A DNA stretch of 62,950 nucleotides, taken from the IMG/VR virus record IMGVR_UViG_3300050343_000162, positions 1 to 62,950 of that record; one strand, given 5' to 3'. Below, one piece after another: positions 27,476 through 42,848 of this stretch (position 1 is its first letter; each line of letters opens with the position of its first letter). Below the pieces are notes generated by a model. The model was not told the DNA's origin. It ran no database searches and worked only from the letters and a program-made list of their open reading frames with translations. The translations under genes and the position numbers were made by a program. Origin of the DNA: a virus.

Positions 27476-30400
27476 ATGGCAAACATTCAAAGAAATTTTG
27501 TAGCTGGGCGTATGAATAAAAGCCTTGACGAAAGGCTTATACCAAACGGAGAGTATATAGATGCTTTGAATGTTAGACTTGGTTCTACTGAAGAATCAGA
27601 AATAGGGGCTGTTGAAAATGCTAAGGGTAATACTACAGGTTACATCACTACAATATATAGACGGTACTGCACTAAGCAGCTCAGCTAGATGTATAGGAGC
27701 TTTTGAAGATGGTGCAAATGAAACTATTTATTGGTTTGTTCACGACCCTGCATTTACTGTAGGAGCAACTGGTAAATTAGATTTAATTGTTTCTTATAAT
27801 GTAATAACAGGCTCTCTTATTTATCATGTTATTAGTATTAATTCTGGTGATAATACAAATACTACTTTAAATTTTAATCCAAATTTTTTTAATAACATCT
27901 GTAAATAAAATAGATAATTTAATTTTTTTTACAGATAATTTAAATGCTCCAAGAGTAATTAATATAGATTTTAATTACTCTGTTCCATTTAATAATGTAG
28001 ACCAATTTAGCAATGAAGAAATTTTAGTAATAAAAAAACCGCCTCTGGCTGCACCAACATTAAATTTATTAAGCACTACTTTAGAAGATTCTTTTTTAGA
28101 AGATAATTTTATTTGTTTTGCTTATAGATATAAATATTCAAATGGCGAATATTCAGCTGTTTCGCAGTTTAGTGAACCTGCTTTTGACCCAAGTTTTTTT
28201 GAATTTTCTTCAAATAGTTTTTTAAACGAAGGAATGGTTAACTCCAAAAATGGAGTACAAATTACATATAATACGGGAAGTTCATTAGTAGTTGGTATAG
28301 ATTTATTATTTAAAGAAGCAAACGATCCTACTATAAAAATAATTGAAAAAATAAAAAAATCACCATTAGGACCACATAACACTAATGCAACTTATGTTTT
28401 TACAAACAGTAAAATATTTACTGTTCTTCCTGAAAGTGAAATATTAAGATTATATGATAATGTACCTAGACAAGCGAAAGCTCAAACTTTAATGGGTAAT
28501 AGATTGATTTATGGTAATTATACAGAAGGATATAATTTAATAGATATAAATAATCAACCACTAAATTTACAATTACACTGTTGCTTTAGACACTGAAGAT
28601 GCTAGTGGAGGTAGATTTAAATTCATCTAATTTATTGACATTTACTTATGACAGCTTTTGGTAATAATCAAAACATAAATACGGCTGGGTTTACTTTTGA
28701 TTTAGGTGGATATGAAAGTAAATTAATTCAAGGAGCTAATTAAATTTTCTTTTACTTATCAACATTTATCTTACAATAATGGGACAGATACCCAACTCAA
28801 CTGCAAGGAGAAACCCTAATTAATTTTCAATATGTTTTAGTTGATAATTATACTACAGTTTCAGCTTATATAATAGCTCAGATTTTCAATCAAAAATAGG
28901 GTTTAATAAGTTCTCAATTCAAACTGTAGCAGATGCTCAAAATGGTTTAGGTGCTAACGTTAACTGATGCGTTTAATTTTTCTTTATCACCAACTTTTCA
29001 GGTGGGGGAGTTAGTTAATATCTATAAATCAAACTGGATTAACTTCAAGCACAAGCTCAGTTCCTCCATCCTAATAAAGGTGAACCAATAATTCAATTTT
29101 AGTCGGAACTGAAATACAACTTTTATTTCCTGTAGCTCAATATATTCAAACATCACCAGGAACAAGTAATTTAATTGTATCATACAATACCTTTACATCT
29201 ATTAGTGCTACATTACAAGCTACTGCAGATTTACAAAGCTTACATAGTAATAGAGGTTATGAATTAGGAATAGTATACATGGATGAATATAACAGAGCTT
29301 CGACAGCTTTAGTTAGCAATAATAACACAGTAAATATTCCGTGCAGAAACTCTAAACTTTAAATAAAATTATTGCTACAATACCAACTACCCAAAGAGCT
29401 CCTTCTTGGGCAACAAGATATAAGTTTTGTTTAAAACCAGATAGAACAACTTATGAGACCATATATTCAAGCATATTTATTAATGACCCAAATTCAATAA
29501 TACTTTTTATTATTAGAAGGAGATAATATTGCTAAAGTTGAAGAAGGCGATAGATTAATTGTAAAAAGAGATGCTAACGGCCCGGTTGACAATCTTGTGT
29601 ATTATGCAACTGTTTTAGAAAAACAAACACAAGTCTGCGGACTTTATTACCCCTGCTAGTGGAAATCCTGTTCCAGGAGGAACATATATGAAAATGAACA
29701 TCTCAAGATTTTTCTACTGAGGAAAGTGCTATTGATATTATTTCTTTAGGAACTTTTCAGCAAAAAGCAGATAATCCTAATGAAAATCCAGTAGCAGCAT
29801 ATCCTTTTATACACTCAGAAACAGATGGAGCAACAAGCACAAATTATTAATGTGCCTAGCGGAAGTAGAATAGTAATGAAAATAAAACAAAGAAGAGAGG
29901 TGGGGGTGGGCCATGTGAAGAAAGAGACTAGTGTAATAGAAGAACAATTTATTGCGCAAGATACTTACACAGATATGTATCAATGGTTTATTGGCGATAA
30001 CAATGCAACATATGTAATAGAAAATAATGCTACTACTTATAGTGGAAACCTTTTCATGACCCGGTAGGAAACGTTGTTATTTCAGGTTTAGTTCCTGGTT
30101 CACCTACAGGTACTCCAGAAACAAATGGATACGCAGGAAATAATTTAGGTAATTGAACAATGTACACTATATTTGGAGGACAATCAAACAGCCCATCGAC
30201 GTGAAAGTGATTTACTTTTAAATAACTATTATAGGTTTTATGAAAAAAATACAAACAATACATATTCAATTTTTGTAAGCGGAACTGAAGCTTGTAATAA
30301 TGCTAGTACAGGAAGTAGATATAGGTCTCGTGTTGAAATTACTTTTACTGTTTTAGAAGAGATTCTGTGATTGTTTTTGAAACTGAACCACAAGAAGCTT

Positions 30401-33400
30401 TACCTGATGTGTGGTATGAAAATGAAGAATCATTTTCTATTGATTCAAAGGAAATCATAGTGGTAACATAACTAATCAAGATATATCTACAGGTGTTGCT
30501 GGAGTAGTTAATACAAATTTTTTAATTGTTTTGCTTTTGGTAATGGTGTAGAAAGTTATAAAATAAGAGATTCTTTAAATGGTAAATCTTTTAATTTAGG
30601 TAATAGAGTATTTACAACTTCTAACGTAGAATATAAAGAAGCTCATAGGTTTGCTGATTTAACTTATAGTGGTGTATATAATGATGAAACTAATGTTAAT
30701 AAATTAAATGAATTTAATTTAGGTTTAGCTAAATTTTAAACCACTTGAAGAAAGTTATGGGGATGTTGAAATATTATATGCAAGAAGAACTGATATACTT
30801 AGTTTTACAAGAAGATAAAATATCATACGTATTAGCATCTAAAAATATTATATCTGATTCTACTGGAGGAGGTTTAGTAGCTTCAGTTCCAGAAGTTTTA
30901 GGAAATCAAATAGCACGTATAGAAAACTATGGTATTAGTAATAACCCAGAAAGTTTTGTGGCTTGGGGTGAAAATAAATATTTTACTGATGTTAAAAGAG
31001 GTGCTGTAACTTCAATTAATGGGTGGCTCTGCTTCAGATGAAAGACTTATAGTTATATCTGAAACTGGAATGAGAAGCTGGTTTAGAGATTTATTTACAG
31101 AGCATTTACTACTCAAAAATTAGGAGGTTACGACCCTTACATGGATGAGTATGTTTTAACTTCAAATACAATATTAAAACCTGAAATACCAGTTTGTTTA
31201 GCGTGTGGTGTTACTAAAGATATAACAATAATAGCTAATCAAGACTTTGTTTATTGTGTAGATGTTACTGAGCAAACAGGAACTGTAACAGTAAGTTATG
31301 TAATCCCACAAGAAGGAGAGCAAGATATTGAAAGCGAAACTAGCGTATTGATGACAGATGAATCTGGAATTCAACTAATTACAGAGGGTCTCAATCTCAA
31401 ATTGGTTATACAATAAAAGCTATATATAAAGGTGTAACATATACATCAGGTTCTGTTACTGCTTCAGGTAGTTTTACATTTGATAAAAATGTTCCAAGTG
31501 TAGAAGAGGTTACATAGTGGTTAGTTCAAATTCAGACCAAAACGATACTATTCAAATAAATGTAAGTTGTCCAGAGAGCAGGCGCATTAAACATATATAA
31601 CATTTGTGTTACTGACCCACTTGAAGCTGGACAATTTATACACAACGAATTTAGTTGGACTGACGGAACTACTGTTTCACCAATAGAATCTAATTTAGTA
31701 GAATTTACAAGCACATCTTCTTCTTTTGCTATATCACAATACCAGTTATTTTCTGGACCACAGGGAAGTGGAGTTTTCCAACTGACGGGTCTACTGTAAC
31801 TGTATCTTCAAACAAAATTAATTTTGATGATTTTGTATTTAACCCTTCAACAGATAGATTAAAATATTTAAGAACAAACACTTTTTATCAAAATAATGTA
31901 ACAGACATAACAAGTTTACTTTCTTTAGCAATTGATGCAACACCAATATCTACAGTTGGCGCTCCAACAATTTATTCGGTAGATTTCACTATGCCAGCAA
32001 GCGGAAGTATTTTATATTTAGTGTGGGATTATAGGTCTACAGCATCTCCAACGCCAACACCTACGCCTACACCAACTTCCACTGGCCCAACGCCGACTCC
32101 GACTCAGACGCCTACGCCGACTCCGACTCCGACTCCGACTCCGACTCCTGGTCCAACACCAACTCCGACACCGGTTGGTCCAAGCCCAACTCCGACTCCG
32201 ACTCCTGGCCCAACACCAACTCCGACTCCTGGTCCGAGCCCAACACCTGGTCCGAGCCCAACACCTGGTCCAACGCCTACTCCAGGTCCAACGCCTAGTC
32301 CTTCTACTAGTTGTAGTGAGTGGACGCTAGCTTGTCCAAGTGGAAGCAGTGGATGTGGTTATTCCTACACTGATTGTGATGGAAACACTCAATCAGGAGT
32401 ATTACCTGGAGATTATGATATAGACGTTTGTGTATTAGACGGAACAACACCTATTATTAGTAATGGTAGTGCAAACAATACAAATATAGCTTGTCAACCT
32501 ACACCATCGCCTAGTCCTGGACCAACACCAACACCAACACCAACTGGTCCAAGTCCAACACCTACACCTTCTGCAAATTGTACGGAGTGGGTATTAGCTT
32601 GTCCAAGTGGTTCAGGAGGATGTAACTTTAGTTATACTAATTGTGATGGAGATGTTATAAGCGGATCATTAGCACCAGACTTTGATGTAGATGTATGTGT
32701 GTTAGTTGGAACAACCCCTACAGTAACCGGAGGTAGCGCTAATGACACTGGTGTAAGTTGTCCTACACCATCGCCTGGACCTAGTCCATCGCCTAGTCCG
32801 TCACCTAGTCCATCGCCTAACCCTGGACCTAGTCCTACACCTACCCCGACGCCAACACCTGTACCATCACCAGCTTGTACAGAGTGGACGTTAACGTGTC
32901 CTAGCGGAGGAACAGGATGTAGCTATTCTTATACAGATTGTGACGGAAACACTCAGACAGGAAATTTACCAGGCGATTATGATATTGATGTTTGTGTTCA
33001 AACTGGAACCACTCCAAATGTAAATGGAGGAACAGCCTCTAATACAAACGTCGCTTGTGTTCCACCACCAGCGCCTACACCTACACCTGTAGCGCCTACA
33101 CCTACACCTACACCTGTAGCGCCTAGTCCTACACCAACGCCTAGTCCTACACCGAGTCCAGTTGCACCGACGCCTACACCAACACCTGTAGCACCGACAC
33201 CTACGCCTACACCTACTATATCGTATGATGATTATACAATTACAAGGTGTGATGGAGGATTTAATAATTATACTGTAGGTAGAGCAGTGGCGGGAACATT
33301 CCCAACCAATTCTGTGCTGTTGATGCCAGATGGTAACTGTTATGAAATAATTGACCCTACTGGAACATTAGGTACAATAGCTAATGCAATATACTCGAAT

Positions 33401-33865
33401 TGTTCTGCATGTTCAACGCCTACGCCTAGTCCTACGCCTACGCCTACGCCTACTATACCTAGTCCTACGCCTAGTCCTACGCCTAGTCCTACGCCAAGCC
33501 CTACGCCAAGCCCTACACCAAGTCCTACGCCTACGCCAACTGTGCCAAGCCCTACACCTACGCCGGTGCCGGTGCCGTCTCCAACCCCTGCGCCAAGACC
33601 TACGCCTACACCTACAGCGTGTATTGGAATTGAAGTTGGATACTCCACAGGTCTTTATTACGGTTGTTGTGCACCTCCAGATAATAGTGGTATTAAATAC
33701 TTTAATGCAAATTCTATAGCTACAGCTACAAGAATGTATGATGGGTTTACTTGCTCTACACTTGAGAGCGGAACAATTTATGTTAGTGAGTTTGGTTCTA
33801 CTTATTATGAATTTTTCAACGGAGTTAAAACTGCAGGACCAATATCTTGTCCATCATGTCCGTAA
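27476..33865 (+). CDS. Tail muzzle/stabilisation protein with Thr-Pro linkers and Cys-rich repeats, frameshifted
   Basis: About 2,130 aa after repair. The N-terminus [20 protein letters not shown] with [16 protein letters not shown] is the opening of muzzle (tail nozzle, beta-propeller) proteins of crAss-like and related podoviruses. Indels riddle 27650-31930; from 31991 the frame is open. The C-terminal third alternates (Thr/Ser-Pro)n tracts (32047-32305, 32503-32574, 32764-32872, 33062-33221, 33417-33618) with three six-Cys repeats (about 32311-32494, 32579-32761, 32876-33058; pattern C-EW-L-CPSG-GC-Y) and a different Cys domain near 33226-33410. It ends in a Cys-rich cap (ISCPSCP). The linkers are candidate substrates for the oxygenase encoded next. 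Likely at the tail tip. Confidence 0.7.
32047..32305 (+). repeat. Short tandem repeat encoding (Thr/Ser-Pro)n
   Basis: A GC-rich run of six-base units such as ACTCCG, ACGCCT and CCAACA, with TGGTCC and GAGCCC interruptions, encoding alternating Thr/Ser-Pro with Gly-Pro breaks. Different codons are used for the same dipeptide, so selection acts on the protein. Four more tracts follow in the same gene and five occur in the 37522 gene. Exact unit counts may be affected by sequencing error or slippage. Confidence 0.85.
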
Positions 33866-34291
33866 AAACAAAAGAGTTTATACATAAAGTCAATAAACAT
33901 TTAAATGGCAATGTAATTGTTTTAGGCGGTTGGTCTAAACATTTTAATGGTTACATAGAGAATTATGACAAACACTGGATAGATATAAGTATTACTCCTG
34001 AATCTGTAGATTTAGTTTGTGAGTTAGGATTAAAATTAGATATAAATGGAGGTCATTCCTGGGGAGGATCATATAATAAATCAATTTACTGTCATGTGTG
34101 GTGTTAAACCAAACCGATATTTTTTAGATGTTTTTGTGTCAAATAAATTAGAGGGGTATAAAGAAATAAATGATTTAAAAATATTAACACCTCAAGCAAA
34201 TATAAAGTGGCATAAAGAAGCTTATGATATGCTTCAATACGAATGGTTGTCAGAAAAAATTACGAATCTAAAAAACCTTTACAATATTTAA
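33856..34291 (+). CDS. Putative nucleotidyltransferase-like protein, one frameshift
   Basis: The ATG at 33856 lies inside the end of the muzzle gene (an in-frame TTG at 33847 is less likely). Reads [20 protein letters not shown], then [30 protein letters not shown] and, after an indel near 34080, [14 protein letters not shown]. About 145 aa. The G-G-W...W-x-D-x-S pattern with a later DVFVS strand loosely resembles minimal nucleotidyltransferases, but the canonical GSxxxG...DxD is not clear. First gene of the modification cassette; its role is unknown. Confidence 0.45.
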
Positions 34292-34317
34292 TATTTTTTT
34301 AATTGGTTTATAATTAA

Positions 34318-34325
34318 TAACTTTA
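34318..34325 (+). promoter_or_regulatory. Possible promoter box (TAACTTTA)
   Basis: TAACTTTA departs from TAnnTTTG only at the last base. It is followed by the leader ATTAAATTTAATCTAATCTAATG of the oxygenase gene, the longest copy of this A-rich leader type in the genome. It would let the modification cassette be transcribed on its own. Confidence 0.5.
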
Positions 34326-34345
34326 ATTAAATTTAATCTAATCTA

Positions 34346-35618
34346 ATGCAAGAATATAAAAATTTCCTCACACCCGAGGAGTGTCAAGAATTAATTAAAA
34401 TGATTGACGCAAACCACAGTAGATCATCAGTTGTTGAGGGTGGAACCGATAGAACTGCAATATCTGATTACAGAACATCAAGCACCTGTAATCTTGACTC
34501 CTAACAACCCATTAATTAAAAGTATACATAACAGAATAGCTGATTTATTAGGTATAGATATTAAAAAAGGTGAAGCTTTACAAGGGCAACTTTATGAGGT
34601 AGGACAATATTTTAAACAACATAATGATTTTTTTGAAGGAGCTGGATACGATATGCATTGCAAAGCCTCTGGCAATAGAACGCATACTTTTATGGTATAT
34701 TTAAATGAAGGAATTAAAGGAGGTGGAACTAATTTTCCAAATCTTAATAAAGTTGTAGAGCCTGAATTAGGTAAGGCTTTAATGTGGGAAAATATGAAAG
34801 ATGGAGAATTGCAACACCAATACCTGCATGAAGGTGTTTCTGTTGAAGAGGGTAAAAAATATATTGTTACATCTTGGTGGAGAGAAAAATCGTGGGATGG
34901 AGCTGGGGATGAAAAATTAGCATCCCAACCGCAAGAAAAACCTAAACAAGAAATACAAAAAAAATCATATATAGTTAAATCCTCTGAATTAACTAAAGAA
35001 GCTGAAAAAGAACAAATAAAAATTCAACCAGTTAAATATACCCATAAAGACCAGATACCTAAATTTACAGAATTAGGATTTTCTTTAGTAAAATGCCCTG
35101 AAGAAACATGGAATATTATAAAAGATTCTTATGAGATACTAAAGGGTAAGATTACCAACGAGCAATTTGCGGGTAAAGAAGATATTATAAAAGGTGGAGA
35201 AAGCGAAATAATGTCATTCGATCATTTGCCTTCAATTAAAAAAATTATACACGAACAACTTTTAACAATTCATCAAAACTGGATTAAGGTTCAAAATATA
35301 ATTCCATCTGCTATATATGGAATTAGGTCATATAAAAGAGGTGCAACTTTATCAAAGCATGTAGACCGAGTAGAAACTCATCATATAAGTTCTATTATTA
35401 TTGTAGATAAAGATTTAAATTGTGGCTGTCAAAACAGAAAATATGGAGACGATTGGCCATTAGATATTCAAGGGCATGATGGAGAATGGTATAAAGTTTT
35501 TGCTGAGCCAGGAGACATGATTATGTATGAGTCAGCAATATGTGAACACGGAAGAGAAGAAGCTTTTCAAGGCACTCATTATAGAAATTTTTATGTTCAT
35601 TATAAATTAACAAATTAA
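34346..35618 (+). CDS. Two-domain prolyl 4-hydroxylase-type 2OG/Fe(II) oxygenase, one frameshift
   Basis: About 423 aa. It opens MQEYKNFLTPEECQELIKMI (the F-L-xx-E-C-xx-I-I entry of P4H domains); one indel near 34495 precedes PLIKSIHNRIADLLG. Domain 1: LYEVGQYFKQHNDFF (His-x-Asp), MVYLNEGIKGGGTNFPNL, LQHQYLHEGV (distal His) and KKYIVTSWWRE (Lys for 2-oxoglutarate). After a Lys/Gln linker, domain 2: YKRGATLSKHVDR (His-x-Asp), ISSIIIVDKDLN, FAEPGDMIMYESAICEHGR (distal His) and HYRNFYVHY (Arg). Both triads look complete. Such enzymes hydroxylate proline in repeats. It lies between two genes encoding Pro-Thr tracts, which I infer are its substrates; substrate and product are unproven. Confidence 0.85.
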
Positions 35619-35625
35619 ATTTTAT

Positions 35626-36642
35626 ATGAGTAAAACAATACTTATAACAGGCGGCGCAGGTTTTATTGCTCATCATGTGATTGAAGAAATATTAAATAAA
35701 ACTGATTGGAACGTTATAAGTTTAGACAGGTTAGATTTTAGTGGCAACTTAAATAGGCTACAAGATATAGTTGGAGAACGAAAAGATAAGAAAAGAGTTA
35801 AAGTCGTTTATCATGATTTAAAAGCACCTTTAAATTCACAAATTATTTCCTCTATAGGCAGGGTAGATTACATTGCACATCTTGCCGCAGGCTCACATGT
35901 AGATAGAAGTATAGATTATCCAATGGAATTTGTTCTTGATAATGTAGTCGGAACTGCTAATATTCTTGATTATGCTAAAAGCATAGACAGCTTAGATAAG
36001 TTTGTATATTTCAGCACGGATGAAGTATTTGGTCCAGCTCCTAAAGAAATAAACTACAAAGAGAACGACAGATATAACTCTACTAATCCATACAGCGCAA
36101 CCAAAGCAGGGGCAGAAGAATTAGTTGTGGCTTATGAAAATACTTATAGGATGCCAAACATAATCACTCATACCATGAATGTATTTGGTGAAAGACAACA
36201 TCCTGAAAAGTTTATACCTATGTGTATTAACAAGATTTTAAAAGGAGAAAAAATATTTATACACGGCAACAAAGAAAAAACCTTAGCTGGGAGCAGGCAC
36301 TATATTCATGCTAAAGATGTAGCTGATGCCCTGTTGTTTTTACTCCAAAATAACACCCCATCTGTTGCTGATGAAACTGGCATCAAGTGTCCTAAATTTA
36401 ACATAGTCGGTTCAGAGGAAATTGATAATCTATCATTAGCTTTATATATTGCTGATGTACTTGATAAAAAATTAAATTATGAAATAATTGATTTTCATTC
36501 TTCAAGACCAGGGCATGATTTACGCTACGCTCTTTGTGGAAATAAAATGAAACAAATGGGGTGGACACCGAGTGAAGTATATAAAAAGTTAAAAGAAACA
36601 GTCAATTGGACTGTGTCTAACAATATATGGCTTAAAATATAA
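35626..36642 (+). CDS. NDP-sugar 4,6-dehydratase/epimerase (RmlB-like extended SDR)
   Basis: A 338-aa extended short-chain dehydrogenase. The NAD-binding turn TGGAGFIAHHVIEEIL opens the protein; HLAAGSHVDRSIDYP and STDEVFGPA closely match dTDP-glucose 4,6-dehydratase (RmlB), including the Thr-Asp-Glu of the active site. The catalytic YSATKAGAEEL (Tyr-xxx-Lys) and NVFGERQHPEKFIP follow, with RHYIHAKDVADALLF and RPGHDLRYAL near the end. It probably makes a 4-keto-6-deoxy sugar nucleotide for the glycosyltransferase encoded next, which starts one base after its stop. The exact sugar cannot be read from sequence. Confidence 0.85.
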   Translation: MSKTILITGGAGFIAHHVIEEILNKTDWNVISLDRLDFSGNLNRLQDIVGERKDKKRVKVVYHDLKAPLNSQIISSIGRVDYIAHLAAGSHVDRSIDYPMEFVLDNVVGTANILDYAKSIDSLDKFVYFSTDEVFGPAPKEINYKENDRYNSTNPYSATKAGAEELVVAYENTYRMPNIITHTMNVFGERQHPEKFIPMCINKILKGEKIFIHGNKEKTLAGSRHYIHAKDVADALLFLLQNNTPSVADETGIKCPKFNIVGSEEIDNLSLALYIADVLDKKLNYEIIDFHSSRPGHDLRYALCGNKMKQMGWTPSEVYKKLKETVNWTVSNNIWLKI

Positions 36643-37476
36643 ATGATAAGATTTTTACCTAGCGCAATAGTTGATCCTCGATATAAATGGATGGCAAACT
36701 TTTGGGCATACTGCCAAAAAAAAGTATACGGTAAGGATGCTTTATATAATAGTCTAGTAACTATTGTTAATCAAAATACATATAATAGTAAAGTATATAA
36801 TTCAGTCGATTGGGATTTACTTGGATTGCCTCATTACATAAGCCCTCCCGTTTGGAATTACGTTGATAGTAAAAATGATTTATGTATAGTAATTAATGTA
36901 GTATCTTCTTTAAAACCCCTGCTTAAAGATTTTGATGACAACGATACTTTAGTATTGTGTGATATGGATATGGTTTTATTAAAACCGTATGATAGTATTT
37001 TACCTGACGACAACACTATTATTTGTTATGATGGTTACGAGGATTGGCACATGTTTATAGCTAATAAAGAAAAACAAAACTATAATAAAATAGTACCGTA
37101 TTTAAAACATCAAGACCAGGGGTATATGAATGGTGGCTTTGTTCCTATTTTTATAAAAGCAAAACTATTAAAAAAAATTATAGATGAATTAATAGCAACT
37201 GCTGAAGAAATTGTGGAGTCTGAAGAAGATCCACCATGGAAATGGTGGAGCTGTATGACTGCTTTATCAATAGTATGCCATAACAATAAAATTAAAATGG
37301 TTGGTCAAGATAATACCTATATACCTAATTTTAATAAGTATAACCAAGACAAACATTACTTCGCCCATTATAGCGTAGACCCTATATTTAACAAAAGAAC
37401 TTTTCCTAATCATAAAATAGACGAGTATCCAAACAACTCTTTTTATAACGTTATTAAGGAATGGATTGTCCGATAA
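36643..37476 (+). CDS. Glycosyltransferase, GT-A DxD type
   Basis: A 277-aa protein. The core LVLCDMDMVLLKPYDS holds the Asp-x-Asp that binds divalent metal and nucleotide sugar in GT-A enzymes; DQGYMNGGFVPIFIKA and the Trp-rich PPWKWWSCMTALS give acceptor-side loops, and HYFAHYSVDPIF closes the fold. No signal peptide or membrane helix, so it acts in the host cytoplasm before assembly. It follows the RmlB-like gene immediately, forming an oxygenase, sugar and transferase cassette between two Thr-Pro-rich virion genes. A plant-like hydroxyproline or serine glycosyltransferase role is a hypothesis; a Ser/Thr O-glycosyltransferase would equally fit. Confidence 0.75.
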   Translation: MIRFLPSAIVDPRYKWMANFWAYCQKKVYGKDALYNSLVTIVNQNTYNSKVYNSVDWDLLGLPHYISPPVWNYVDSKNDLCIVINVVSSLKPLLKDFDDNDTLVLCDMDMVLLKPYDSILPDDNTIICYDGYEDWHMFIANKEKQNYNKIVPYLKHQDQGYMNGGFVPIFIKAKLLKKIIDELIATAEEIVESEEDPPWKWWSCMTALSIVCHNNKIKMVGQDNTYIPNFNKYNQDKHYFAHYSVDPIFNKRTFPNHKIDEYPNNSFYNVIKEWIVR

Positions 37477-37497
37477 AAGACATTGCATTTAAATTCG

Positions 37498-37505
37498 TAT
37501 TTTTG
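37498..37505 (+). promoter_or_regulatory. Bacteroidota promoter -7 box (TATTTTTG)
   Basis: TATTTTTG fits TAnnTTTG and lies 16 bases before the ATG at 37522. It restarts transcription of virion genes after the modification cassette. Confidence 0.6.
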
Positions 37506-37521
37506 TAGTTATTAATCAATA

Positions 37522-40113
37522 ATGAGTTGTAAAGAATCTAAAATAATATGTCCAATAGGGGCAACAGGAGGAGAGTGTACATTTGATATTTTATGTTGTG
37601 GTGATTTAGAAGACCAGTATTCATCCCATACTATAAGCGCTGGTGTACAAAAAACAGTTTGTGTACAAGACAGTGATTTAGAACCTGTAATTGTTACATC
37701 TATATCAGGTAGTAGAACGAACTCATCAGTAGTTTGTAGTTCTTTTTGTGGAGAATTAAATCCTGCTCCAAGCCCAAGCCCTTCACCTGCTCCAAGCCCA
37801 AGCCCTTCACCAACACCTACTCCAACTTCAGGATGTCAATGTTATCAATTGTTATATGAAGATGCTGGAACAGCAACTATAAATTACACAGCGTGTGGTG
37901 GTGGAGCAACAAGTATAGTAATAAATCCTTTAACGTTATATTATATATGTTCTACAACAACTCCTACTACTAGTGACCCGGCTGTAACAATATCAGCGTT
38001 TGGCAGTCCAGGCGGGTGTACAACAAATACAGATTGTGACCCAAATCCTCCGACTCCAACACCAGTACCGACGCCTACGCCGACACCAGGGCCAACACCA
38101 ACACCCGTGCCAGCCCCTACTCCGACACCTACGCCTCTTCCGACACCCACACCTGTGCCAACTGGTGTTCAGTGTTATGAATGGACATTGGTATGTCCAA
38201 GTGGCTCCATAGGTTGTTCTTATGAATTTATAGATTGTAATGCAGTAACACAAACAGGAACTCTTGCTCCTGACACAGATATAGATGCGTGTGTTTTATT
38301 CCCAAACACACCTCAAGTAACAAATGGAACAGCTATAGAAACAGGAGTGGCTTGTCAAGCCCCTAGCCCTAGCCCTAGCCCTAGCCCTGGTCCTGCTCCA
38401 ACACCTACACCTAGCCCTACTCCAACTCCTTCATCTGGATGTACCGAATGGACTTTATTATGTCCGAGTGGCGCTTCTAGTTGTACTTATTATTATAGGG
38501 ACTGTGATAACGTAGTACAAACTGGTACTATGTCACCAGATTTTGATTTTGATGCTTGTGTTTTAGCGGGCAACATACCTACTGTGCAAAACGGAAGCAC
38601 GTTTAACACAAATCAACCTTGTGATCCAACGCCAAGTCCTGCACCCTCACCAGTTTATGAATATAAAGAATACAGTAAGTGTAACGACAGCAGTACAGTT
38701 CAAGTATTTTATGGACCTAGTGGATATAATTTTCCTTCAGTAGTGGTTTACAATGAAAGTTGTTATGAAAATCCACAGCCCACTGGAACTTCTACAGGAG
38801 CTAACATTTTAGGACTCCCAACATATTCTAATTGTACAGATTGTTTGGATGTAAATCCAGACCCTAACTTTTGTTTAGGGTTAACCAATACAGTATTAAT
38901 TGTTAATAGAGGTTCAGGTAATGAATATGAATTTAATGGGCAAGATGGTAACCCATACGGAACATCAACAGGAACATACACGCTATTATCTGTTCCATCT
39001 GCACACCCTATTGCTATATTAAATAATGGTAAAGAGTCTTTAATTTCATACACAGGAACTACTAGCGCAGGTACAGGGACAGCTCCAGATGGAAACACAT
39101 ACACATATTATATCGGTGACGTTACATTGACGGTAACCGGAGATTACCAGACAGTAAGTTATGCTTGTTTATATCACGGATATATGGGTGGTCAAGACAA
39201 CTTAGGATTTAATTCTACAGTTTGTAGTGTGCCGCCAGCGCCTAGTCCATCGCCTGGACCAAGCCCTACACCGACACCCTCAAGCGTAGTTCCTCCTATA
39301 CCATCGCCTGTAGATACGGAGTACACTTTAACATATAGTCAAACGTCTAAAGGGTGGCCTTCTTTTTATTCTTATATACCAAATTTTATGCTTGGTATGA
39401 ATCAGTATTTTTATTCATTTGATGCAGGAAATCTTTATCAACATAATGTAAATGGAAGTAGAAATAATTTTTATGGACAGCAATATAGTTCTCAAATAAC
39501 GACGGTGTTTAATCAAAACCCGCTTGAGAATAAAATATTTAAAACTATCAATTTAGAATCAGATCAGGCGTGGCAAGCGAATTTAGAAACAGATATACAA
39601 CAAAACGGATTTATTGAAAGCACTTGGTTTAAAGAAAAAGAAGGTGCTTATTTTGCATTCCTAAGACAAAACGGAGAAGTGCCAGCGCTTCCAGGACAAT
39701 ACGCAATGAGGTCAGCTAACGGAATAGGAAAATCAGTAAGTTATACAACTGTCGGCAGCACCACAACTTTAAATTTTTCTACTAACCCTGTTGTTGAAAT
39801 TGGAAACATTGTAAGTATTGGAGATTATTTATATTTTTCCCTACCAAGCTATACTAGTATAAGTTTAGCTGGAAAGATAACAAATATTAATATTAATATA
39901 CGTACAGGCATAAACCAGATATCAATAGATACAAGTATATCTGGTGCTATACCGATAACTATTCAAGATGCGTTTATACTTTATATTAAAAGTTCTGTTG
40001 CAGAATCCCACGGTTTACTTGGTCACTATTGTATATTTACTTTAATAAATGATAGCACTAAATCCACCGAACTCTTTGCAGTTGAATCCGAAGTAATGAA
40101 AAGCTATCCGTAA
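37522..40113 (+). CDS. Cys-rich Ser/Thr-Pro-linked tail protein
   Basis: An 863-aa open frame. The Cys-rich N-terminus (MSCKESKIICPIGATGGECT) leads to tracts PAPSPSPSPAPSPSPSPTP (near 37765), [17 protein letters not shown] (near 38060), more near 38360, 38635 and 39235, alternating with two six-Cys repeats (38172-38355 and 38438-38620, CxEWTLxCPSG) and a YSNCTDC domain. The last 270 aa are different: YSQTSKGWPSFYSYIPNFML, MNQYFYSFDAGNLYQHNV, SRNNFYGQQYSSQI and a beta-rich end. That part resembles the C-terminal portion of podoviral muzzle/stabilisation proteins, so this gene and the 27476 gene may be two pieces of one ancestral gene. Likely surface exposed and possibly glycosylated. Confidence 0.7.
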   Translation: MSCKESKIICPIGATGGECTFDILCCGDLEDQYSSHTISAGVQKTVCVQDSDLEPVIVTSISGSRTNSSVVCSSFCGELNPAPSPSPSPAPSPSPSPTPTPTSGCQCYQLLYEDAGTATINYTACGGGATSIVINPLTLYYICSTTTPTTSDPAVTISAFGSPGGCTTNTDCDPNPPTPTPVPTPTPTPGPTPTPVPAPTPTPTPLPTPTPVPTGVQCYEWTLVCPSGSIGCSYEFIDCNAVTQTGTLAPDTDIDACVLFPNTPQVTNGTAIETGVACQAPSPSPSPSPGPAPTPTPSPTPTPSSGCTEWTLLCPSGASSCTYYYRDCDNVVQTGTMSPDFDFDACVLAGNIPTVQNGSTFNTNQPCDPTPSPAPSPVYEYKEYSKCNDSSTVQVFYGPSGYNFPSVVVYNESCYENPQPTGTSTGANILGLPTYSNCTDCLDVNPDPNFCLGLTNTVLIVNRGSGNEYEFNGQDGNPYGTSTGTYTLLSVPSAHPIAILNNGKESLISYTGTTSAGTGTAPDGNTYTYYIGDVTLTVTGDYQTVSYACLYHGYMGGQDNLGFNSTVCSVPPAPSPSPGPSPTPTPSSVVPPIPSPVDTEYTLTYSQTSKGWPSFYSYIPNFMLGMNQYFYSFDAGNLYQHNVNGSRNNFYGQQYSSQITTVFNQNPLENKIFKTINLESDQAWQANLETDIQQNGFIESTWFKEKEGAYFAFLRQNGEVPALPGQYAMRSANGIGKSVSYTTVGSTTTLNFSTNPVVEIGNIVSIGDYLYFSLPSYTSISLAGKITNININIRTGINQISIDTSISGAIPITIQDAFILYIKSSVAESHGLLGHYCIFTLINDSTKSTELFAVESEVMKSYP

Positions 40114-40120
40114 AAATTAG

Positions 40121-40128
40121 TATCTTTA
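40121..40128 (+). promoter_or_regulatory. Possible promoter box (TATCTTTA)
   Basis: TATCTTTA, one base from consensus, lies 7 bases before the ATG at 40136, so the leader would be only a few bases long. Confidence 0.5.
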
Positions 40129-40135
40129 CACTAGT

Positions 40136-40543
40136 ATGGACTTTAGTATAAGAAAATTAAAGACATCTGATTATGATGAGTTATTGGTAGGGTGGTGGAA
40201 AGATTGGGGGTGGAAACCTCCAGAAAGAGAAGTATTGCCAGATAATGCTAAATCAGGGTTAATAATTTTTGATAAAACTAAACCTATATGCGCTGGTTTT
40301 ATTTATTTAACTAACTCCAAGGTTGCGTTAATTGAATGGGTAATATCAGATAAAAAATATAATGATAAAAGAAAAAAAGTAAAAGCTTTAAATTTATTAA
40401 TAGACGCATTAATATTAACTTGCAGCATATTAAAGATTAAATATATAAAAGCTGATAATGAAAGTAAAAGTTTAACAAAAGCTTTTATAAAAAAAGGTTT
40501 TGAAAAAGGAGATATAGTTACACATCTAATAAAAAAAATATAA
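40136..40543 (+). CDS. GNAT-family acetyltransferase-like protein
   Basis: A 135-aa protein with the GNAT order: N-terminal MDFSIRKLKTSDYDELLVGW, a beta strand KPICAGFIYLTNSKVALIEW that matches beta 4 and the hydrophobic run before the acetyl-CoA loop, KALNLLIDALILTC, and a closing AFIKKGFEKGDIVTHLIKKI (the xGF motif). The canonical Q/RxxGxG/A loop is degenerate. Such genes often sit among virion genes of marine phages; targets are unknown. Possibly another modifier of virion proteins or sugars. Confidence 0.6.
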   Translation: MDFSIRKLKTSDYDELLVGWWKDWGWKPPEREVLPDNAKSGLIIFDKTKPICAGFIYLTNSKVALIEWVISDKKYNDKRKKVKALNLLIDALILTCSILKIKYIKADNESKSLTKAFIKKGFEKGDIVTHLIKKI

Positions 40544-40544
40544 T

Positions 40545-41207
40545 ATGGGAGCAGGATTCGGAAACATAGCAGATACAGCAACTAAAGCCACTGGCGCAGC
40601 GGGAGGTGGTGGATTCTTAGGTAGTTTAGGTGGAGCTTTAGGTAAAATAGCTGGGCCATTAGGGTTGGTTACAGGTATTGCTGGTTCAATAATGAGTTTT
40701 AGTCAAGCAAAAAAACAAAGAGAAATGCAACAAGAAGCTCAACGTGAAGCTGATAAAGCATTTAAAGAAGCTCAAGACAAATTAGAAGTTAATTATTTAG
40801 AAGGTCTCTCAATAGCTAAAGAACCTTATGAATTAGAAAGAGAAGCCTTACTTCAAGCTGGAGCTTCAGCCTTACAAGCTGGAGTAGAAGGAGAAACTAG
40901 AGGGGCGGCTGCAGTAGCAGGGCAAGCCTTGATGGCTCAGCAAGCAGGGGCAGCAGGACAAAGAGCGGCAATGTCTAGAGAAATGCAACAACTACAGCAG
41001 TTAGCCGCACAAGAAGAGTCAAGGCTACAAGGCGCAAGAGTTGAATTAGATTTAGGAAAAGCTAAAGGATATCAAGCGCAGTTAGCTGATTTAAGAGCTA
41101 GTGAGGCAGCATCAAGATTACAGGGGGTGCAAGGAATTGCTCAAACATCTGGTGATTTATTTAAAGCATTTACTCCTTTATATAATCCTAACGAACAAGA
41201 TTCATAG
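40545..41207 (+). CDS. Internal virion protein, gp14-like
   Basis: A 220-aa protein. A glycine-rich hydrophobic stretch at the N-terminus (GGGGFLGSLGGALGKIAG, then LGLVTGIAGSIMSF) precedes long Ala/Gln/Glu coiled coil (AKKQREMQQEAQREADKAFK). A small membrane-active segment followed by a helical body fits T7 gp14 and other podovirus ejection proteins, which enter the cell envelope ahead of DNA. First of three consecutive core-type genes. Confidence 0.7.
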   Translation: MGAGFGNIADTATKATGAAGGGGFLGSLGGALGKIAGPLGLVTGIAGSIMSFSQAKKQREMQQEAQREADKAFKEAQDKLEVNYLEGLSIAKEPYELEREALLQAGASALQAGVEGETRGAAAVAGQALMAQQAGAAGQRAAMSREMQQLQQLAAQEESRLQGARVELDLGKAKGYQAQLADLRASEAASRLQGVQGIAQTSGDLFKAFTPLYNPNEQDS

Positions 41208-41210
41208 ATT

Positions 41211-42848
41211 ATGGCATACGGATACGTAAGAGATAAAGAACCGCTAGGTATAAACTGGGCAGAGATATCAAAAAATTTTAATGATAGACTAGCTGCTGAT
41301 GAGGCAGAGAGACAGGGTAAAAGAGATGACATACAAAAACAGTATGATGAGTTATCTCAAGAGCTTATAGATAAACCTACTGGGGCTGATATAGATTTAA
41401 ATAGCGCTATATCATCTTTTTCTACACAAGCTTCACAAGCTTCATTAGATGCATTAAACAGACTTAAAAGAGGGGAAATATCAGAGCAAGAATATTACAA
41501 TCGTAGAGCTAATCTTAAAAGTAGTACAAGTAATTTATTTTTGTATGCTAATAATTTTAATAGTCAATTAGAGGAAAATTTAAAATTAATACAGTCGCAA
41601 GACCCAGACAACCAAGGTTCAGGTAGGATGGCTTTTCAAATGGCTTTGGCTCAAGACATGTTAAATTTTAAAAATACCGTAGCTATAATAGATCCAGCAA
41701 CTGATGAGGTGATGTTGGTTAAAACAGATGAAGAAGGAAATCCAACTAATGAAGTGGTGAGTGTTTCACAGTTAGGAAATCTTTCAAGTCAAAAAGAAAA
41801 TTCATATAACTATAAAGGTAGGATAGCTAGAGCTTTAGAAAATAGAGGAGTGGCAAAATACACCAAGGATGGTAAAGTGATAACAACAATACAAGGAGTG
41901 GATATAAAGCCTGGGACTGCTACAGCAACAATAGATAAATTAGCGGAATCATTTGTAGGAGATGAGTCACAAATTCTAAGTATATTATATCAAAATGGCT
42001 ATCAATATACTCAAGATGAAAGTTTAAAAGGAAAAGATAAGTACATATATTATGATATAAAAAATGGTACTTACGATTATGATAAAGATAAAGCTGTTGA
42101 TTTTGTAAAAGAAGATATAAATAATTCTATACCGGTAGAAGTAAAAGATGAATTAACTACTTTTCAGAAAGCAAATTTAGAAAATCAAAAATTAAACAGA
42201 GAAGAATCAATTAGACAATTTAATATTAAAATTGCGTTAGATAGAGAAAGACTGGGTATAGAAAGTGGAAATCAAGAAGGAGTTAATTCACCATTAAATA
42301 TAATTCAAACTACTGACGGAAGACAGATTGCTGGAAATAATTATATAAGAACAATTTCTGAAAATAATTTTAAAAATTTTAAAAATAAAAAAGATGTATC
42401 TATTAATTTATCAGAAGTATTAAAAGAGGCAGATATTCCAGGTGTCACTATTACATATACAGAAGGAGGTCAAGATGTTTCGCCTATAACTGACTTAGTT
42501 AAATCACAAGGAGGGCTTACAAATGTCCCAATGGGTCACTTTGTAACTGGTTCAAGCAGTAATCCTACCATTAGAACACTGGAAACAATAGATATATTTG
42601 TTCCTGAAATAATGGATCAACCAATTAGAATTCCTATAACCGAAACAATTAGCGAGGATATTGAAAGAGTTTTTACTGTAATTGAATTAAGAAAAAAAGG
42701 AGGCGATAAAATCATTGGAAACGAAATAAACTTTATACCTTTTAATGAGTACTATAACCCTATATCAAGACAAGAAGAGGTAGTAGAAGAGGTTGAAAAC
42801 GAATCGGTAAATAATAGTAATAGAGCAACTGGTTTTAATCCTGATTAA
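41211..42848 (+). CDS. Internal virion/core protein, 545 aa
   Basis: Starts MAYGYVRDKEPLGINWAEIS. Mostly Asn/Lys/Glu/Gln-rich helical sequence, with a mixed segment TENNFKNFKNKKDV-like region and an acidic C-terminus. No enzyme motif seen. It lies between a gp14-like gene and the giant 1,967-aa gene, matching the order of T7 gp14-gp15-gp16. A role in the ejection channel inside the head is inferred from order and size. Confidence 0.6.
   Translation: MAYGYVRDKEPLGINWAEISKNFNDRLAADEAERQGKRDDIQKQYDELSQELIDKPTGADIDLNSAISSFSTQASQASLDALNRLKRGEISEQEYYNRRANLKSSTSNLFLYANNFNSQLEENLKLIQSQDPDNQGSGRMAFQMALAQDMLNFKNTVAIIDPATDEVMLVKTDEEGNPTNEVVSVSQLGNLSSQKENSYNYKGRIARALENRGVAKYTKDGKVITTIQGVDIKPGTATATIDKLAESFVGDESQILSILYQNGYQYTQDESLKGKDKYIYYDIKNGTYDYDKDKAVDFVKEDINNSIPVEVKDELTTFQKANLENQKLNREESIRQFNIKIALDRERLGIESGNQEGVNSPLNIIQTTDGRQIAGNNYIRTISENNFKNFKNKKDVSINLSEVLKEADIPGVTITYTEGGQDVSPITDLVKSQGGLTNVPMGHFVTGSSSNPTIRTLETIDIFVPEIMDQPIRIPITETISEDIERVFTVIELRKKGGDKIIGNEINFIPFNEYYNPISRQEEVVEEVENESVNNSNRATGFNPD

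Follow-up and report, generated by a model that had tools for sequence, protein, structure and literature searches.

The Oxygenase Locus and Its Flanking Repeat Proteins

The stretch of viral DNA analysed here (the window, 62,950 nucleotides) contains a gene for a double 2-oxoglutarate (2OG)/Fe(II) oxygenase, followed by genes for a nucleotide-sugar enzyme and a glycosyltransferase (Table 1). This cassette of oxygenase and sugar genes is flanked by two proteins that carry long arrays of Ser-Pro and Thr-Pro motifs. The first is a repeat protein of 624 residues, 146 of which are prolines; 101 of these follow a serine or a threonine. The motif (S/T)P(S/T)P occurs 71 times, while shuffled versions of the same protein have 3.0 copies on average and 10 at most, and roughly half of the residues in the repeats are Thr or Ser. 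The second is a crAss-like muzzle protein, whose N-terminal extension has 24 copies of the motif against a shuffled mean of 0.6. Such arrays are found nowhere else in the window, where the other long reading frames have one copy at most.

The C-terminal muzzle domain PF25729 is present in the window and in six of six relatives, and by this domain the window very likely derives from a Crassvirales-like phage. The muzzle is a virion protein, on the evidence of gp44 of phi-crAss001 (PMC10172136); that the 624-residue repeat protein is also part of the virion is inferred from the repeat domains that it shares with the muzzle and from its position. In nearly all relatives an SP/TP-repeat protein is encoded just upstream of the oxygenase and the muzzle downstream, with a variable slot for sugar genes between them.

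Table 1. Features of the oxygenase locus, in window coordinates
Feature	Position	Strand	Remarks
Ser/Thr-Pro repeat protein	31991..33865	+	Candidate substrate, upstream; N-terminal part hit by further frame breaks
147-aa gene of close relatives	33847..34291	+	Split across two frames at ~34068-34070 in the window
Double 2OG/Fe(II) oxygenase	34346..35618	+	Interrupted in the window by an indel of one base around 34495-34505
D1, prolyl-4-hydroxylase domain (very likely)	34346..34903	+	H92xD94, H161, K171; PF13640, PDB P4H, 3gze
D2, second DSBH oxygenase domain (very likely)	35037..35615	+	H338xD340, H401, R413; PHROG 2954, 6n1f
NAD-dependent nucleotide-sugar epimerase/dehydratase	35626..36642	+	PF16363 2e-51, PF01370; PHROG 540 1e-96
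HPAT-like glycosyltransferase	36643..37476	+	D-x-D at residues 107-109; homologues match PF23452
crAss-like muzzle	37522..40113	+	Second candidate substrate; PF25729 2.2e-20; N-terminal Ser/Thr-Pro-rich extension

A Frame Break That Is Likely a Contig Defect

The oxygenase gene is interrupted in the window. The frame that opens at 34346 ends at a TAA at 34504, and a second frame from 34404 to 35618 encodes 404 residues; a single shift at about 34501 joins the two into a protein of 423 residues. This reading has matches in 24 IMG/VR loci, with 52-76% identity from end to end where the contig holds the whole protein. In all full-length IMG/VR relatives examined the protein is encoded by one open frame, of 391-433 residues when complete, and the break is thus private to the window. 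Comparison with close relatives places frame breaks in the region 30343-34505 at about 30447, 30521, 30736, 30800, 31389, 31790, 34070 and 34500. Because the relatives read through and because other frame breaks cluster nearby, the indel is treated as a defect of this contig, likely due to an error-prone consensus or sequencing, or else to a recent mutation.

A programmed +1 frameshift at TCC-TAA was considered and rejected, since the break occurs in no relative and is not the only one in this part of the window. It is also observed that the breaks fall within 4 kb, and that the downstream genes from 35626 to 42245 match their relatives in single frames.

The Nei-Gojobori omega is 0.01-0.2 in D1 as well as in D2, and therefore both halves are selected as proteins. 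Among 50,697 records of isolated phages there is no protein that covers 80% of the fused enzyme.

Two Different Oxygenase Domains in One Polypeptide

The window has all eight catalytic and 2OG-binding residues listed in Table 1, and none of them varies among 15 aligned proteins. D1 matches PF13640 (E = 1.2e-13) and PHROG 61 and, by sequence, the prolyl-4-hydroxylases (P4Hs) of the PDB (4e-25; 8e-33 with a P4H profile). The best match to its predicted structure is 3gze, the Chlamydomonas P4H co-crystallised with (Ser-Pro)5, at a Z score of 21.4; three residues before the first histidine of the HxD motif D1 has Phe89, where the algal enzyme has Tyr. By sequence and fold D1 is very likely a prolyl-4-hydroxylase, while hydroxylation of peptidyl proline at C4 is inferred without chemical evidence.

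D2 has no significant match in Pfam: PF13661 stays below threshold, at 0.089 in the window, and the D2 of another locus (L215; L numbers denote viral loci) reaches 1.7e-4, yet remains under the cut-off. Its predicted fold is a double-stranded beta-helix (DSBH), with a Z score of 15.6 to the Burkholderia 2OG oxygenase 6n1f over 163 residues. The structure model of the fused enzyme has a pLDDT of 73.7, with low values at residues 28-43, at 90-100 and in the linker 185-227; the fold call for D2 rests on values of about 80-90 across most of 235-422. With a DSBH fold, an HxD...H triad and a basic 2OG residue, D2 is very likely a 2OG/Fe(II) oxygenase, where the fold is predicted by a model and the activity is inferred.

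D2 also matches PHROG 2954 (1e-12), a family labelled 'ferrochelatase'. This identity was rejected for D2, since the predicted fold is that of a DSBH oxygenase. Proteins of PHROG 2954 and PHROG 3531, called 'ferrochelatase' in cyanophages and pelagiphages, look like D2-related 2OG oxygenases, and the label is likely a misannotation that has been carried over.

The preliminary description, made from sequence alone, had proposed two complete 2OG/Fe(II) oxygenase domains after one indel, and that the halves are not recent duplicates. Both claims held. Each half is a DSBH domain with a complete triad, kept in the window reading and in every aligned relative; profiles and structure prediction leave neither half outside the DSBH oxygenases, which would have refuted the proposal, as would the loss of a triad residue. 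Duplication was rejected as the origin of D1 and D2, since a profile-profile comparison detects no similarity between them (probability 0.3%).

Variable Cargo in the Glycosyltransferase Slot

The glycosyltransferase of the window has itself no Pfam match and lies below detection; it is called HPAT-like by way of its homologues, to two of which (in L002 and L060) it is 38% identical. Members of this family score 28.8 (L002), 31.6 (L219), 46.5 (L221) and 26.2 bits (L226) against PF23452, the Pfam family of HPAT (hydroxyproline O-arabinosyltransferase, GT95), which has a cut-off of 23.9 bits; the best E value is 4e-12. These matches are distant, and transfer of L-Araf to hydroxyproline (Hyp) by the window enzyme is inferred. 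Its predicted structure, with a pLDDT of 46 and no PDB match at Z 2, is too poor to use. GT96, a family of serine-galactosyltransferases, is a relative of GT95 (PMC8012813).

HPAT-like enzymes occupy the slot in 19 of about 62 loci. Elsewhere it holds GlcNAc-transferases of PF11397, of GT60 type (eight of eight members match above the Pfam cut-off, the best at 1.5e-40; G007 scores 214.8 bits), short Gly_transf_sug glycosyltransferases, O-fucosyltransferases, a carbamoyltransferase or radical SAM/SPASM proteins; in L022 it is empty, with oxygenase and repeat protein retained. In two close relatives, L122 and L137, the oxygenase, the epimerase and the HPAT-like gene are replaced by a 408-residue PF11397 glycosyltransferase and a 762-residue protein. 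Because the cargo varies between constant flanks, and because of the replacement in L122, the slot looks like a swappable modification cassette.

Some further gene contents are recorded here as separate observations. Radical SAM/SPASM genes beside the double oxygenase, in L021:2619-3518 (PF04055/PF13186), L076 and L077, suggest further peptide modification. L047:9115-9675 and similar genes encode slot proteins of 183-187 residues with HxD...H motifs, maybe another 2OG oxygenase. In a jumbo phage (L226:7383-8834) the HPAT-like enzyme carries a fused GDSL-like lipase region at its N-terminus, and the next gene downstream encodes a P4H.

The HPAT-like gene is absent from the 50,697 isolated-phage records (two queries). 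Scans of GTDB genomes for relatives of D2 and of the HPAT-like enzyme found none; this absence is weak, since the scans depend on short peptide patterns.

Co-occurrence across Viral Loci

A scan of IMG/VR from the glycosyltransferase side gave 69 HPAT-like loci; its seeds came from the crAss-like family, and the backbones are therefore not a random sample. In 65 of the 69 a D1 or D2 gene lies at most 8 kb from the HPAT-like gene, and three of the remaining four are cut by the contig end. SP-rich reading frames are present in 57 of the 69, including non-muzzle and jumbo-phage backbones.

Several unrelated backbones are represented. No muzzle was detected in L197-L211 (D2 alone, or fused), in L215-L217 (fused), or in L226/L237 and L218/L219, where both oxygenases are separate neighbouring genes. 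In the jumbo-phage loci L226/L237 the genes for the repeat protein, the HPAT-like enzyme, a P4H and the second oxygenase follow one another; in L218/L219 those for the repeat protein, the HPAT-like enzyme and the second oxygenase are followed by a P4H gene on the opposite strand. The separate second oxygenases show D2-type motifs; in a profile comparison with D2 the split-gene partner reaches a probability of 83% (E 9e-6), which is suggestive only. L215 and L226, as judged by eye, share flanking genes, and one has the fused enzyme where the other has separate genes: likely the classical sign of two fused activities that serve one pathway.

Because these loci encode a P4H and a D2-type oxygenase separately in the same neighbourhood of SP repeats and HPAT-like genes, the suggestion of the preliminary description that two activities act on the same substrate gains support. 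From its proposed pairing of Pro-4 with Pro-3 or Lys hydroxylation only the P4H part, D1, is backed, and the residue and position acted on by D2 are undetermined; a likely substrate and the glycosyltransferases had not been part of that description. D2 is found without D1 in L116 and L197/L198/L204-L211, and because D2 rather than D1 is the more constant partner (as in L116 and the L204-type loci), it is possible that D2 is itself a prolyl hydroxylase.

In a sample centred on the muzzle, at least three SP/TP motifs are found in 29 of 30 loci with an oxygenase and in 2 of 33 without (Fisher 1.8e-14); short muzzles of about 270 residues mostly lack both the arrays and the oxygenase. The muzzle tree shows only about three changes in these traits, with two independent pairs, and the muzzle-based association is not significant after correction for ancestry. 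With only two such pairs, the case rests more on the differing backbones. L122 and L137 keep SP-rich proteins and the muzzle, with no oxygenase found on their contigs and only PF11397-type glycosyltransferases; hydroxylation is therefore not obligatory.

Two other arrangements deserve mention. L116:6709-7272 encodes a standalone D2 of 188 residues; its neighbours encode SP-rich proteins, a radical SAM-like protein and a glycosyltransferase with sequence features of the PF11397 group, and no P4H was found on its 25-kb contig. In Pelagibacter phage HTVC023P (gp65-gp67; L027:3585-5468) three oxygenase-like genes are adjacent, one of them a D2 homologue, among what seem to be tail or virion genes with Gly-rich repeats.

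Discussion

A Putative Pathway for Hydroxyproline-Linked Stalks

The gene content, folds, catalytic residues, purifying selection, repeat arrays and recurrent co-occurrence rest on data. The substrate, the hydroxylated residue and its position, the sugar, the order of reactions and the benefit to the phage are inferred. In the proposed pathway the fused protein would be a bifunctional phage protein hydroxylase. D1 would hydroxylate prolines in the Thr-Pro and Ser-Pro repeats of the 624-residue protein and of the muzzle extension, and D2 would add a second hydroxylation to the same stalks, most likely at a proline in another position or context. The glycosyltransferase of the slot, HPAT-like here and a PF11397 GlcNAc-transferase or O-fucosyltransferase-like enzyme elsewhere, would then glycosylate the hydroxyls, while the neighbouring epimerase may tune the sugar nucleotides. 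The product would be a stalk around the tail tip, glycosylated in the manner of extensins, with possible roles in receptor access, protection or surface variation.

The steps of this pathway are not equally secure. That the oxygenase hydroxylates prolines in the virion stalks is favoured by a modest margin, without chemical evidence and with the substrate inferred; that the hydroxylated stalks carry a Hyp-linked sugar could as well be wrong as right. A bolder reading, for and against which the evidence seems balanced, is that marine crAss-like and unrelated phages share a horizontally exchanged cassette for making extensin-like Hyp-linked glycoproteins; that such a cassette would consist of one or two prolyl hydroxylases and a hydroxyproline glycosyltransferase is held with equally divided confidence.

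Hyp-linked O-glycosylation is known from plants, green algae and protists. In the open-licence literature searched, no report of a P4H in crAss-like phages and no paper on phage hydroxyproline glycosylation was found, and if the chemistry is as inferred, the cassette would be the first hydroxyproline O-glycosylation pathway in bacteriophages. It would then give a function to 2OG oxygenases, a class of genes that is among the most frequent in marine phages of those without an explanation and is usually filed as auxiliary metabolic genes; it would suggest that one step of virion maturation depends on oxygen and iron, and offer small soluble tools for producing Hyp glycoproteins.

Alternative Explanations

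The alternative that survives best, and remains possible, is that the stalks are mucin-like: the glycosyltransferases would act directly on Thr and Ser, and the oxygenase would modify something else, such as a sugar, another residue of the virion protein or a host protein. In its favour, L122 and L137 pair SP-rich proteins with PF11397 enzymes, and no 2OG gene was found on either contig; GT60 includes alpha-GlcNAc transferases that act on Ser/Thr (PMC8724618), and about half of the repeat residues are Thr or Ser. However, it leaves unexplained why HPAT-like genes adjoin D1 or D2 in nearly all loci of the scan, and why D1 resembles P4Hs that act on SP peptides.

Hydroxylation without sugar is unlikely. 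Here the P4H would stiffen stalks of polyproline-II-like structure, and the glycosyltransferases would act on other parts of the virion or on glycans of the host surface. The variable glycosyltransferase content of the slot, and the empty slot of L022, speak for this, but most loci have a slot glycosyltransferase, often of a hydroxyproline-type family.

Very unlikely is a 2OG sink, or hydroxylation of host proteins that reprograms the host, as by the Bacillus P4H on EF-Tu: Bacillus P4H/EF-Tu structures are among the structural matches, and a 2OG-modulating role has been proposed for the 2OG oxygenases common in cyanophages (PMC3037559), but in nearly every locus the gene lies within a block of virion-structural genes, next to those for Pro-repeat proteins, and a sink would need neither two intact substrate pockets nor synteny.

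Comparison with Known Systems

The preferred reading, hydroxylation of the stalks followed by glycosylation, can be set beside several known systems. The muzzle gp44 of phi-crAss001 has the same C-terminal domain as the muzzles of the window and its relatives, which differ from it by N-terminal extensions rich in SP/TP; neither 'proline' nor 'glycosyl' appears as a word in the main text of the phi-crAss001 paper (PMC10172136).

A further parallel is the Hyp-rich glycoprotein pathway of plants and algae, in which a P4H is followed by HPAT/GT95. D1 has its P4H fold and catalytic residues in common with the type I P4H of Chlamydomonas (3gze/2jig), and the phage has a candidate SP/TP-repeat substrate and an HPAT-family glycosyltransferase alongside. 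In contrast to the plant and algal pathway, the phage has a compact cassette, no secretory pathway, a fused second oxygenase and distant glycosyltransferases, and its chemistry is untested. The Skp1 pathway of Dictyostelium and Toxoplasma, where a P4H is followed by a Hyp GlcNAc-transferase, is similar in its cytoplasmic logic and in the pairing of a P4H with PF11397-type neighbours. Skp1, however, is modified at a single proline, whereas the phage candidate is a multi-site virion repeat, and the PF11397 members of the phage loci may act on Ser/Thr.

The collagen P4H of PBCV-1 (5c5t), which D1 matches with a Z score of 19.9, is likewise viral and acts on Pro-rich sequences, but it is a single-domain enzyme of a eukaryotic virus and is not known to be adjoined by an HPAT cassette. 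A phage polypeptide with two 2OG domains has been noted before, ORF248 of cyanophage S-SCSM1 (PMC9602691), where, by eye, the domains stand in reverse order, D2-like and then P4H-like; ORF114 of the same phage, encoded next to an O-fucosyltransferase and a further 2OG gene, is homologous to D2 and stands alone. The tandem prolyl hydroxylases Tpa1 and OGFOD1 also have two DSBH domains per protein. In these enzymes the metal triad is missing from the C-terminal DSBH, while in the phage enzyme both triads are intact.
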